A stretch of 64,000 nucleotides of DNA from Mangrovimonas sp. YM274 (lineage in GTDB: Bacteria > Bacteroidota > Bacteroidia > Flavobacteriales > Flavobacteriaceae). The stretch is from assembly GCF_030908385.1 (NCBI RefSeq), contig NZ_CP133091.1, forward strand, positions 124,001 to 188,000, in the 5' to 3' direction. The notes under the pieces are model-generated. The model was not told the DNA's origin, ran no database searches, and was given only the letters and a program-made list of their open reading frames with translations. The position numbers and the translations under genes are program-made. Each line of letters starts with the position of its first letter. Position 1 is the stretch's first letter. Below, piece after piece: positions 307-4,809 of this stretch.

Positions 307-387
307 TTTTGTTTTTAACGCAACCTTTTAAGGCTTTTGGCATCTTACCTTAAAAGGTATAATTCTTTAAACCCAATAATGTTGAAA

Positions 388-801
388 ATGAAAAAGATAT
401 TAGTCTTATGCACGTTCCTACTTACTGTTCTGTCCTGTAGTCTTGATGACGACGGTTCACCTTCCTTCTACTATGAAATACTACCGGTTGAAAGCGTTGA
501 TATGCCTGAGGAGTTTGTTTTAGGCGAAACCTATCCCATTTACCTAAGTTATTTAAAGCCATCGAGCTGCTATGTCTACAACAATCTCTATTATGACAGC
601 GAATTAAACCAAAGAACCATTGCCATTGTAGATAAAGTTTATGTAAATGATTGCATTGAGTATGACGAAGAAGAAATAGAGGAAGTATCCTTTAACTTTA
701 AAGTTGTAAGCAACGGAACCTATATATTCAGATTTTGGCAAGGTGAAGATGAAAACGGAAATGATTTGTACTATATTGTTGAAGTGCCTGTAGTAGAATA
801 A
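388..801 (+). CDS. Small surface-type lipoprotein of unknown function
   Basis: This is a 138-residue protein with a lipoprotein signal peptide: MKK, a hydrophobic stretch, then LTVLSC with the lipid-bearing cysteine at residue 17. The residues after the cysteine are SLDDDG. This acidic patch resembles the lipoprotein export signal that sends Bacteroidota lipoproteins to the outer face of the outer membrane. The rest is acidic and beta-rich with no recognised domain (it ends FRFWQGEDENGNDLYYIVEV). ATG 388 was chosen because it gives a canonical signal peptide; ATG 379 is possible, and the frame is open back to 337. It lies 31 bases before the ECF sigma gene and may be co-transcribed with it. 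Function is unknown. Confidence 0.75.
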   Translation: MKKILVLCTFLLTVLSCSLDDDGSPSFYYEILPVESVDMPEEFVLGETYPIYLSYLKPSSCYVYNNLYYDSELNQRTIAIVDKVYVNDCIEYDEEEIEEVSFNFKVVSNGTYIFRFWQGEDENGNDLYYIVEVPVVE

Positions 802-832: not shown

Positions 833-1375
833 GTGAGTTTAGAGCAACTCATAGAAAGTTGTAAAAAAAATAATGCTAAAGCACAAAGCCAGTTATATAA
901 ACTCTACTCGAGTAAACTATTCTCGCTGTGCTTAAAGTATTCGCGAAATTATGCCGAAGCAGAAGACAACCTGCAAGACGCATTCGTTACCATTTTCGGT
1001 AAGATCTCACAATATCAAGGCAAGGGCTCCTTGGAAGGCTGGATGAAACGCATCGCAATTAATACTGCCTTACAGCGGTATCGGAGCGCAGGCGTGTTTA
1101 ATATTGTTAATGAAGAGCAAATAGAGGATGTCTCCCTAGAAATTGACGAAGATGACATCACCCTTGATTTTCTCCTCAAAATCATCCAAGAGTTGCCAGA
1201 TCGTTACAGACTGGTTTTTAACCTCTATGTATTGGATGATTATTCGCATAAGGAAATTGCGAAAATGTTGGACATATCCACCGGGACCTCAAAATCCAAT
1301 CTTGCCAGAGCACGATTGATATTAAAAGAAAAAATTGAAATGCATAAAACGGGATCCAACTCCCAATCTTTATAA
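833..1375 (+). CDS. ECF-family RNA polymerase sigma factor
   Basis: This 180-residue sigma-70 factor has only regions 2 and 4. Region 2 (about residues 20-90) has LQDAFVTIFGKI and GWMKRIAINTAL. Region 4 (about 120-175) has LPDRYRLVFNLYVLDDYSHKEI, with the helix-turn-helix continuing through SKSNLARAR. The start is GTG 833: an in-frame stop lies upstream at 794 and no ATG precedes the conserved N-terminus. Its stop overlaps the next gene's ATG by one base (TAATG), so the two are translationally coupled. ECF factors respond to envelope or environmental signals through a partner anti-sigma factor, and the next gene is the obvious partner. Confidence 0.93.
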   Translation: MSLEQLIESCKKNNAKAQSQLYKLYSSKLFSLCLKYSRNYAEAEDNLQDAFVTIFGKISQYQGKGSLEGWMKRIAINTALQRYRSAGVFNIVNEEQIEDVSLEIDEDDITLDFLLKIIQELPDRYRLVFNLYVLDDYSHKEIAKMLDISTGTSKSNLARARLILKEKIEMHKTGSNSQSL

Positions 1376-2910
1376 TGAGCGATAAAAAACATATTGACAG
1401 GCTATTCCAAGAGCAATTCAAAGACTTTGAAGCCACTCCCAAAGAAGACGTCTGGAACAACATAGAACAGCGCTTGCATGGCAACAAACGCAAACGTAAA
1501 GTCGTGGGCATTTGGTGGCAATTAGCTGGTGTGGCAGCACTTTTAGCATTATTGCTGACTGCCGGGAAGTTTATATTTAGCCCGCCCAATAGCATTCAGG
1601 AGAACACAATACCCCTTGTTGAAGAGCAAACCAACAGTGAAACGAACGACAGCGCTTTACAACAAACAACAACCGATTCTACCATCAACTCCAATAATAG
1701 TATCAACCATACTGTAACGGAAAACAATCGAAAGAAAGATGCTATGACCCCTTCGGAAAATGGACCATTGCAACAAGGCAAAACTTCCATAAGCGTTAAT
1801 CAAGCCACAACGGTTGCGATTTCTTCTGAAAAGAACTCATCACAAACAAAAAACAATAGCCTTAGAAAAGCGCCACAACAACAAAAAAATGCTCTTTACA
1901 TAAATAGTAATGAGGGCTTAACCAACAACTCTCCAAATCTACCTGAACCTAGCCCTTACACTACTACTCCTTCAGAAAAGAATACAAAAACCATAGACAC
2001 ACTGAAAGATGAAAAGACTAGAGTGGCAGGAATTACACCTTCTGAGTCTAGTGATATACTAGATAAAAATCAGGGTGATTTAAATAAGACTTTAGACACT
2101 CCAGAAGAAATAGCACAAGTAAACGAAAAAGAAGAGAACACAATAGAAGAGGCCATTGCTGAGGCCAATGAACAAACCAATGAAAAGGAAAAAGAGGAGA
2201 AACTAAACAGGTGGAACATTTCTCCAAATGTGGCGCCTGTTTATTTCAACACATTGGGTAAAGGCTCACCTATTGACGAACAGTTTGTCAACAATTCCAA
2301 AAGTGGCGAAATCAACACCAGCTATGGCGTTAGTGGTAGTTACGCCTTTAACGACAAAATCAAGGTACGCGTTGGCGTTAATAAAGTGGACCTTGGATAT
2401 AGCACTAAAAATGTTATCGCTTACAACAGCACCAACAACAATAATGCGCAACTCCAAAACTTAAGAATGAGCAATAGCGCTTCCAACAACGCTGTTATGA
2501 GCACCCAAAACCTTAATAGTAGTTCTCCTGAGGTTATGAATGTAAAAACCTTTGGCGCCTTAGAGCAGCAATTCGGTTTTATTGAAGTGCCTGTCGAGTT
2601 GGAATATGCTTTGGTGAACAAAAAATTAGGACTTAACCTAATAGGTGGATTTAGTACGCTATTTACAAACCACAACGATGTATACGCTACTGGTGACGGC
2701 TATAGAATTCATATTGGAGAAGCCACCAACATTAACGACATGAGCTATAGCGCTAATCTTGGTTTAGGAATGAATTACAATGTATCACGAAAAATAAAAG
2801 TGAATCTTGAACCTATGTTTAAGTACCAGCTCAACACCTTCAATAACACCTCTGGCGATTTTCAGCCATACTTTATTGGCGTGTATACTGGGTTGAGTTA
2901 TAAATTTTAG
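1375..2910 (+). CDS. Putative dual-membrane-spanning anti-sigma factor with C-terminal beta-barrel-like domain
   Basis: This is a 511-residue protein in three parts. Residues 1-42 are a cytoplasmic segment with a FxxxFxxFEaxPxxxVW pattern typical of Bacteroidota sigma-associated proteins. Residues about 44-66 are one transmembrane helix. Residues about 70-280 are a low-complexity linker rich in N, T, S, Q and E. Residues about 283-511 are beta-rich, resemble an outer-membrane beta-barrel (SYGVSGSYAFNDKIKVRVG, FIEVPVELEYAL) and end in YKF with the terminal phenylalanine usual for barrels. It is coupled to the ECF sigma gene by a one-base overlap. The layout matches the dual membrane-spanning anti-sigma (Dma) family known from Bacteroides. 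Anti-sigma activity and the crossing of both membranes are inferred. Confidence 0.82.
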   Translation: MSDKKHIDRLFQEQFKDFEATPKEDVWNNIEQRLHGNKRKRKVVGIWWQLAGVAALLALLLTAGKFIFSPPNSIQENTIPLVEEQTNSETNDSALQQTTTDSTINSNNSINHTVTENNRKKDAMTPSENGPLQQGKTSISVNQATTVAISSEKNSSQTKNNSLRKAPQQQKNALYINSNEGLTNNSPNLPEPSPYTTTPSEKNTKTIDTLKDEKTRVAGITPSESSDILDKNQGDLNKTLDTPEEIAQVNEKEENTIEEAIAEANEQTNEKEKEEKLNRWNISPNVAPVYFNTLGKGSPIDEQFVNNSKSGEINTSYGVSGSYAFNDKIKVRVGVNKVDLGYSTKNVIAYNSTNNNNAQLQNLRMSNSASNNAVMSTQNLNSSSPEVMNVKTFGALEQQFGFIEVPVELEYALVNKKLGLNLIGGFSTLFTNHNDVYATGDGYRIHIGEATNINDMSYSANLGLGMNYNVSRKIKVNLEPMFKYQLNTFNNTSGDFQPYFIGVYTGLSYKF

Positions 2911-3840: not shown

Positions 3841-4809
3841 ATGGCAAGAATACTTACAGGAATACAGAGTACAGGAACCCCGCATTTAGGGAACATTTTG
3901 GGCGCCATTTTACCGGCCATAGAAATGTCTAAAAACGAAGCAAACGATTCGTTTTTGTTTATCGCCAACCTTCACACCTTAACGCAAATTAAAGATGCTG
4001 AAGAGTTACGATACAATACCTATTCTGTAGCTGCCACTTGGCTAGCCTTTGGCTTGGACATTGAAAAAACAGTGTTTTATAGACAAAGTGATATCCCGCA
4101 AACCACTGAATTGTCATGGTACCTAAGCTGCTTTTTCCCATACCAACGTCTTACTTTAGCGCATAGTTTTAAGGACAAGGCAGACCGTTTGGAAGATGTC
4201 AATGCAGGTTTATTCACCTATCCAATGTTAATGGCCGCGGACATTTTATTGTATGATGCCGAAATTATTCCGGTAGGAAAGGACCAATTACAACATATTG
4301 AAATGACTAGAGATGTGGCCTCCCGCTTTCACACTAAAATGGGAGAGGTTTTCGTATTACCCGAAGGAAAAATTCAAGAAAACACAATGCTCATCCCAGG
4401 TACAGATGGGGAGAAAATGAGCAAGTCCCGAAACAACTTTATCAATATTTTTGAAACGGATAAAAAGCTTCGTAAACAGATTATGGGCATCAAAACCGAT
4501 AGCACCCCTTTGGAAGAACCAAAAGACTGGTCAACCTGCAATTGTTTCGCCATTTATAGTTTGTTGGCAAATGATACTCAAATAGAAACCATGAAAGCCA
4601 ACTACGAAAATGGCAATTATGGCTACGGACATGCCAAACAAGCTCTGTTTGAACTCATCGTTGAAAGATTTGCCGAACCAAGAGAAAGATACCAGTACTA
4701 TATGAACAACCTAGATGAACTCGACAAAGCATTAGCGCTTGGTGCGGAAAAGGCCAAAGCAGTAGCCAATGATGTTTTAAAACGTGTAAGAGAAAAAGTT
4801 GGGTACTAA
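3841..4809 (+). CDS. trpS: Tryptophanyl-tRNA synthetase
   Basis: This 322-residue class I aminoacyl-tRNA synthetase charges tRNA-Trp with tryptophan. The HIGH-type motif is PHLGN at residues 14-18, following TGIQSTG. The tryptophan-pocket signature VGKDQLQHIE is near residue 145, and the KMSKS loop is at about 192-196 (GEKMSKSRNN). Length and motifs are those of a normal bacterial TrpRS. It has its own promoter upstream and is followed after 7 bases by a 55-residue membrane protein gene and then a terminator, so the two probably form one short transcription unit. Confidence 0.97.
   Translation: MARILTGIQSTGTPHLGNILGAILPAIEMSKNEANDSFLFIANLHTLTQIKDAEELRYNTYSVAATWLAFGLDIEKTVFYRQSDIPQTTELSWYLSCFFPYQRLTLAHSFKDKADRLEDVNAGLFTYPMLMAADILLYDAEIIPVGKDQLQHIEMTRDVASRFHTKMGEVFVLPEGKIQENTMLIPGTDGEKMSKSRNNFINIFETDKKLRKQIMGIKTDSTPLEEPKDWSTCNCFAIYSLLANDTQIETMKANYENGNYGYGHAKQALFELIVERFAEPRERYQYYMNNLDELDKALALGAEKAKAVANDVLKRVREKVGY

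Follow-up and report, generated by a model that had tools for sequence, protein, structure and literature searches.

How could the state of the outer membrane reach the transcription machinery of a flavobacterium? The question is raised by a 64,000-nucleotide stretch (hereafter, the window) from the marine bacterium Mangrovimonas sp. YM274, whose 3.82-Mb genome consists of one contig. In this stretch, an ECF sigma factor gene runs directly into a gene for a putative anti-sigma factor with a predicted C-terminal barrel. Our reading, which we hold to be probable, is that a small lipoprotein, the sigma factor, and this Dma-type protein are encoded by an autoregulated operon linking transcription to the outer membrane, together with a regulon marked by a shared motif and with a structured RNA.

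The locus and the predicted architecture of its Dma protein

The locus comprises the following features, given as positions in the window:

319..345, + strand: predicted ECF promoter CGCAACCTTTTAAGGCTTTTGGCATCT, with a -35-like box CGCAACC and a -10-like box CATCT at fixed spacing
388..801, + strand: small lipoprotein, the operon's first gene, with lipobox SC and two further invariant Cys
833..1375, + strand: ECF sigma factor, 180 aa, GTG start (Sigma70_r2, Sigma70_r4_2, sigma70-ECF model)
1375..2910, + strand: Dma anti-sigma gene, 511 aa, ATG start (open reading frame)
1375..1500, + strand: Dma N-terminal cytoplasmic segment, residues 1-42, presumed sigma-binding (conservation, two predicted helices)
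1510..1578, + strand: predicted Dma membrane helix, residues 46-68 (prediction including AlphaFold)
1579..2139, + strand: Dma linker, residues 69-255, low complexity (pLDDT under 50, length, composition)
2143..2193, + strand: predicted Dma pre-barrel helix, residues 257-273 (AlphaFold, conservation)
2212..2910, + strand: predicted Dma C-terminal eight-strand OmpA-type barrel, residues 280-511, with terminal Phe, and the stop codon (AlphaFold, Foldseek)

The sigma stop and the anti-sigma start share one base within TAATG (833-1375 versus 1375-2910), so the overlap reported in the preliminary description of this DNA is real, with both open reading frames (ORFs) in place. Upstream, 31 bases separate the end of the lipoprotein gene from the sigma gene. 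The sigma factor lies well over the Pfam cut-offs for its two domains (Sigma70_r2, E = 1.3e-13; Sigma70_r4_2, E = 3.7e-16) and over the cut-off of the sigma70-ECF model. The flanking genes, named from their sequences, are presumably recA (ending at 273), plsC (3737-2988), and trpS (starting at 3841).

The preliminary description had given the second protein a single membrane helix, a disordered linker of about 210 residues, and a beta-barrel-like C terminus ending in Phe, and it had expected structure prediction of residues 280-511 to return an eight-strand barrel. For AlphaFold we supplied 38 aligned Dma sequences, the window's own plus 37 from the 80 best of at least 499 loci. The model placed N-terminal helices at residues 3-16 and 24-35 with modest confidence (block pLDDT 55-63), one membrane helix at 46-68 followed by pLDDT under 50 over residues 69-255, a helix at 257-273 preceding the barrel-like part, and eight long strands (280-294, 313-324, 329-351, 394-414, 418-440, 456-469, 474-486, and 497-510); the last residue is Phe. 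Ten-residue blocks from 281 on had pLDDT of 81-94 in 20 of 24 cases and 62-69 in the other four, and the mean pLDDT of 60.6 is due to the low-confidence linker. These predictions agree with the earlier layout, the linker being about 187 residues long, or about 211 when the pre-barrel helix is counted.

In a Foldseek comparison with the PDB, the best hit of the Dma model was OmpA (E = 2.2e-8); NspA, Ail, and OmpW ranked lower. Were the C-terminal domain a soluble sheet and not a membrane barrel, the locus would hold a usual ECF anti-sigma couple, and the Pfam barrel matches of the window Dma are indeed weak and below cut-off (OmpA_membrane, E = 0.007; OMP_b-brl, E = 0.18). Against this stand the eight long strands, the outer membrane proteins among the PDB matches, and OMP_b-brl matches at E ≤ 1 in 36 of the 38 aligned members, window included (best E = 5.1e-9); a soluble fold, which the preliminary description had named as one of two refuting outcomes, is not what AlphaFold and Foldseek gave, and we regard it as very improbable. 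DUF4179 matched at E ≤ 1 in 7 of the 38 members (best E = 7.6e-4), a PDB sequence search with Dma returned two antibody chains alone (E = 0.7-0.8), and the window Dma contains no Cys.

Conservation across the 38 rows follows the same division, with mean identity fractions of 0.75 for residues 1-42, 0.65 for 43-68, 0.29 for 91-255, and 0.69 for 280-511. The linker ranges from 143 to 237 residues (mean 186), is rich in N, S, K, T, E, and D, and is about 1% aromatic. Two short conserved patches lie around it, namely residues 81-84 and the pre-barrel helix, in which I257 and A260 are conserved in 95% of rows. The N-terminal segment is presumed to bind the sigma factor. If the tether were cut, or never spanned the periplasm, the barrel would be a separate outer membrane protein after proteolysis, and Dma would work like a usual anti-sigma factor with one membrane pass whose sensing takes place at the inner membrane. 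Long linkers without structure are easily cut, and the patch at 81-84 sits just beyond the membrane helix; nonetheless, Dma runs in one reading frame from N terminus to C terminus (470-572 aa) in 80 of the 80 best of at least 499 loci, and we consider separation of the parts quite unlikely. On the predicted model, Dma appears instead to be one polypeptide reaching from the cytoplasm to the outer membrane.

According to PMC13088901, Dma proteins are known solely in Bacteroidota, have this same four-part layout, and lie beside ECF21 sigma factors; those of Bacteroides act on vesicle formation, with nigD1 as a Dma1 target. The pair in the window resembles Dma1/Das1 and Dma2/Das2 of Bacteroides thetaiotaomicron in its ECF sigma neighbor, N-terminal part, helix, tether, and barrel (PMC13088901). 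The suggestion that this is a flavobacterial Dma case is supported by both the predicted layout and the sigma-adjacent gene order. In hhalign comparisons, the window Dma profile matched two NigD1-linked Dma proteins weakly (72%, E = 3.4e-5), and the probability rose to 99.7% once three other sigma-linked Dma-like proteins joined those two. The window sigma factor and that of the NigD1-linked pair L183 are 35% identical over 172 positions.

Conservation of the operon and its lipoprotein

A Dma match at E ≤ 0.001 was found in 125 of 149 family genomes, a family-wide conservation that rules out a chance ORF. At the same threshold, 60 of 296 genomes in a phylum sample matched, outside the family mostly via the N-terminal part. 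The window's own genome has one full Dma copy, to which the profile search adds only a 266-residue protein matching the N-terminal part and linker. In the same genome (L187:2238-3588, from 988000), a second sigma-like gene, recognized by eye, is followed by a barrel-less protein of 266 residues with a match to the Dma N-terminal part.

Gene neighborhoods were compared over the 80 best of at least 499 confirmed Dma relatives, a set that may omit records of the window's own genome and in which Mangrovimonas sp. TPBH4, with 77% identity in Dma, comes nearest. The recurrent order is recA, lipoprotein, sigma, Dma, plsC, and trpS. An ORF with a sigma start motif lies directly 5' of Dma in all 80, at a gap of -1 to 5 bases, and a script recognized recA in 78, plsC in 78, and trpS in 75 of them, some loci reaching contig ends. 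One genome of the same genus (G040, locus L288), with flanks 88-91% identical to the window, has recA, the terminator, the motif described below, and plsC, and jointly lacks lipoprotein, sigma, and Dma; we read its gap between recA and plsC as a loss of these three genes.

The lipoprotein, modeled as a predicted eight-strand beta sandwich, is present in 79 of the 80 best of at least 499 loci (77 by script; L066 and L079 by reading frames), at a median of 24 bases from the sigma gene and, in L066, 392 bases 5' of it. The exception is the Winogradskyella echinorum locus L067, where the motif occurs three times around recA. Family-wide, the lipoprotein was found in 103 of 125 Dma-positive versus 1 of 24 Dma-negative genomes (compared by a Fisher test, which ignores shared ancestry), and the sole hit among those 24, in G046, is a weak partial match (E = 2e-4). 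Three observations count against the proposed switch: the lipoprotein was not found in 22 of the 125 Dma-positive genomes; G203 (L213) has it beside recA without sigma, Dma, or motif; and the motif is missing at the relocated, second, or distant lipoprotein copies L202-L211 and L215. Dma loci L026 and L029 are without the lipoprotein, and each of these genomes has a copy elsewhere.

We treat kinship of the operon lipoprotein with NigD as a lead only. In a structure comparison, the NigD-like 3qwn ranked 2 of 991 chains against the lipoprotein model (Z 6.3, rmsd 3.6 over 92 residues), where a Z under 8 may reflect a common arrangement. Assignment as NigD was rejected: no NigD family was among the Pfam matches listed, NF051862 matched 3 of 38 rows (best E = 0.02), the PDB profile search was empty, and an hhalign value of 78.9% rests largely on the signal region. 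Among the PDB relatives of the NigD1 profile (3qwn, 4j8q, 4pqx, 3k6o, and 3k0y), 3qwn alone appeared in the best 50 entries for the model.

The surroundings of other sigma-Dma pairs suggest that many Dma-type barrels may work with a lipoprotein. A NigD1-family gene is divergent from the pair in L183 and L184 (two genomes of another family), the L188 pair lies beside an LVIVD-like lipoprotein (E = 2.2e-5), and the L190 pair beside an Lcl_C-like one, below cut-off; by eye, no lipoprotein was seen beside pairs L192 and L193. As side observations, a lipoprotein of ~434 residues follows the pair in L185 and L186 (LVIVD, E = 0.006, below cut-off, in L185), and the pairs in L189 and L190 lie near a primary-sigma-like gene (by eye) and are led by a lipoprotein of ~435 residues.

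A promoter-like motif, its sites, and the recA-divergent RNA

Between recA and the lipoprotein lies a 27-base motif of fixed spacing, CGCAACCNTT-N11-[AG][CT]ATCT, a candidate promoter of this sigma factor; the predicted promoter listed above is an exact site, at 124319 of the YM274 genome. The motif was defined on the operon set, and the recA-divergent and genome-wide sites are independent of that definition. After 7 of 81 regions (the 80 loci and the window; six owing to TATCT, and L066 owing to too short a stretch read) had escaped the first pattern, the -10-like box was widened post hoc from CATCT to [CT]ATCT, with the preceding base set to [AG]. Counts for the 80 loci, the own genome, and the 60 genomes below use this wider form.

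Among the 80 best of at least 499 loci, the motif precedes the operon in 80 of 80. A copy divergent from recA, within 400 bases of its N terminus, occurs in 68 of the 80, or in 68 of 78 when two loci with unrecognized recA are left aside; the ten of 78 recA loci that lack an exact divergent site count against our reading. Three further places were found in these loci (L052, L062, and L067), and a letter-reversed control motif had 0 matches on both strands of their 1.81 Mb. Sixty family genomes yielded 107 exact sites in 43 genomes (reversed control, 0). A site was present in 42 of 49 Dma-positive versus 1 of 11 Dma-negative genomes, by a Fisher test that again ignores shared ancestry, and the seven Dma-positive genomes of this sample without an exact site also count against a switch. 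Own-genome sites with two mismatches were dismissed as noise (26 sites at up to two mismatches, versus 20 in the reversed control).

Elsewhere, the motif marks secreted proteins, often lipoproteins. We read 50 further sites, 46 from relatives (picked by eye as not at recA) and 4 from the own genome. An ORF of at least 55 residues starts within 130 bases of 38 of them, mostly 15-50 nt 3' of the motif, and the twelve sites lacking such an ORF count against the switch. Of the 38 target ORFs, 19 passed a fixed lipoprotein rule, compared with 8 of 62 ORFs from the window and 10 of 55 from elsewhere in the same loci, where background ORFs were allowed any start within the first 40 residues and targets one start only. 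The half of the targets that fail the rule likewise count against the switch; by eye, four of these are lipoprotein-like (L239, L259, L277, and L280). By blastp, the targets form groups of 6, 6, 5, 3, 2, 2, and 2 members, the rest being single. In the group of five, the scanned full-length member L261 is an LVIVD-repeat protein (E = 3.1e-20), and a Pfam scan of its own-genome member L285 gave no match. Own-genome sites precede the RNA described below, the Dma operon, a 203-residue DUF3575 protein, and the putative lipoproteins L284, L285, and L286. The L284 and L285 sites are one base off the motif; that of L286 fits the first pattern exactly and departs from the later form by a single base.

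Some other regulator, or a set of related ECF sigma factors, could bind the motif, which would then just happen to lie near the operon. Cross-recognition is plausible because the paralogous sigma-Dma operon L188, in another family member, has a cousin motif, TGCAACC..CCATCT, before its lipoprotein, and the promoter-like site of L189 and L190 shares the -35-like CGCAACC, but not CATCT; no close motif was seen by eye 5' of the sigma genes in the more remote pairs L183-L186, L191, and L193-L195. However, motif presence tracks Dma over the 60 genomes, the single Dma-negative genome with a site being G040, which is without sigma and Dma and has an orphan copy only, and the fixed 27-nt two-box form with ORF starts at short distance downstream is promoter-like. 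We therefore rate binding by other factors as rather unlikely and favor recognition by the sigma factor of the operon.

The recA-divergent motif precedes an RNA stretch that a terminator-like hairpin closes ahead of the neighboring gene, presumably trhO. The YM274 copy, about 216 nt long, lies at contig positions 122952-123167 (L199:1285-1500), just upstream of the window. G040 keeps this RNA, with a -10-like box of CAACT versus CATCT in the window's genome. For covariation, 21 sequences with Winogradskyella titles were chosen from the 44 long ones; a further 18 were aligned unfolded (A5), five long ones were left out, and 16 short ones were unaligned. In one hairpin, each of the eight pairs shows two-sided changes. 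Summed over the full structure, such changes affect 43 cells versus a mean of 12.7 in shuffles, which ignore the relatedness of the sequences and of which 0 of 500 reached that number. Pairing held in 97.7% of cells versus 39-64% in slid controls, a contrast biased in favor of the RNA structure because it was predicted on the same alignment. At the gathering score, Rfam had no match in six loci; four matches up to E 1 fell below it, and one of these four lay on the opposite strand over the L199 terminator.

An ORF is contained in this RNA in 27 of the 69 loci read among the 80 best of at least 499, in the own genome, and in G040, with a length of exactly 30 residues in 28 of these 29; in the remaining 42 loci, the script picked up none. 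It looks translated where present, given its in-frame codon differences (2115 synonymous, 4172 not) compared with the other two frames (721/5346 and 974/5218). The RNA is possibly dual-function, or the product a tiny lipopeptide. The 30-residue ORF of the L199 RNA ends in NSSCKADGG, and no such ORF was found in most Winogradskyella.

The proposed switch and what it would mean

The computations establish how the genes are ordered and conserved, what architecture is predicted, where the motif lies, and that the RNA covaries; beyond this, we infer a mechanism in terms of sigma-Dma binding, barrel insertion, motif-sigma pairing, a signal, a release step, and a role for the RNA. The N-terminal helices of Dma would hold the sigma factor, while the protein would cross the inner membrane once, continue as a disordered periplasmic tether, and terminate as an eight-strand barrel inserted in the outer membrane. 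Disturbance of the barrel, whether by misassembly, membrane stress, or the gain or loss of a lipoprotein ligand, would release the sigma factor. Once freed, it would read promoters of the CGCAACCNTT-N11-[AG][CT]ATCT form and transcribe its own operon, the recA-divergent structured RNA, and scattered genes, often for secreted lipoproteins.

In E. coli, the state of the outer membrane controls an autoregulated ECF sigma factor through sigmaE/RseA/DegS, with the MicA and RybB RNAs in the output. The system proposed here would be analogous in its outer-membrane control of an autoregulated ECF sigma factor and its small RNA output; whereas RseA crosses its membrane once and has no barrel, the Dma sensor would be an outer membrane protein in its own right. 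FecI/FecR also relays a surface signal to an ECF sigma factor by way of an anti-sigma factor with one membrane pass, as Dma would, but it needs a separate TonB-dependent receptor. Assignment of the window Dma to FecR was rejected, as the Pfam scan gave no FecR domain match at E ≤ 1.

Because Dma-type proteins have been published in Bacteroides, the kind of system is already known; this study adds its conservation across nearly the whole family, an operon led by a lipoprotein, the motif, targets among lipoproteins, and the RNA. The system described here differs from Bacteroides Dma (PMC13088901) in being near family-wide and recA-linked and in its different small lead lipoprotein, its motif, and its RNA. 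Alternative sigma motifs have been mapped in a Flavobacterium, where the ECF motif has a CGT box and so differs from the one found here (PMC9723704). A search of mainly open literature, conducted without the motif letters, found no paper on a flavobacterial Dma, an ECF, RNA, and lipoprotein regulon of this kind, or this RNA or motif. We know of no described counterpart of the sigmaE route in Bacteroidota.

On balance, we lean toward the view that the locus represents a core outer-membrane stress response of the Flavobacteriaceae, with a barrel sensor joined to the sigma inhibitor, a lipoprotein regulon, and a recA-side RNA that in some family members also encodes a 30-residue peptide. It would then be a convergent Bacteroidota equivalent of sigmaE/RseA and its RNA arm. 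Outer-membrane surveillance in Bacteroidota is largely open, and a near family-wide candidate system is now at hand. The motif is sharp enough for target prediction, the RNA can be assayed, G040 offers a natural absence, and the operon is small enough to delete, so that the signal read by a Dma barrel and the genes that answer it become directly testable.
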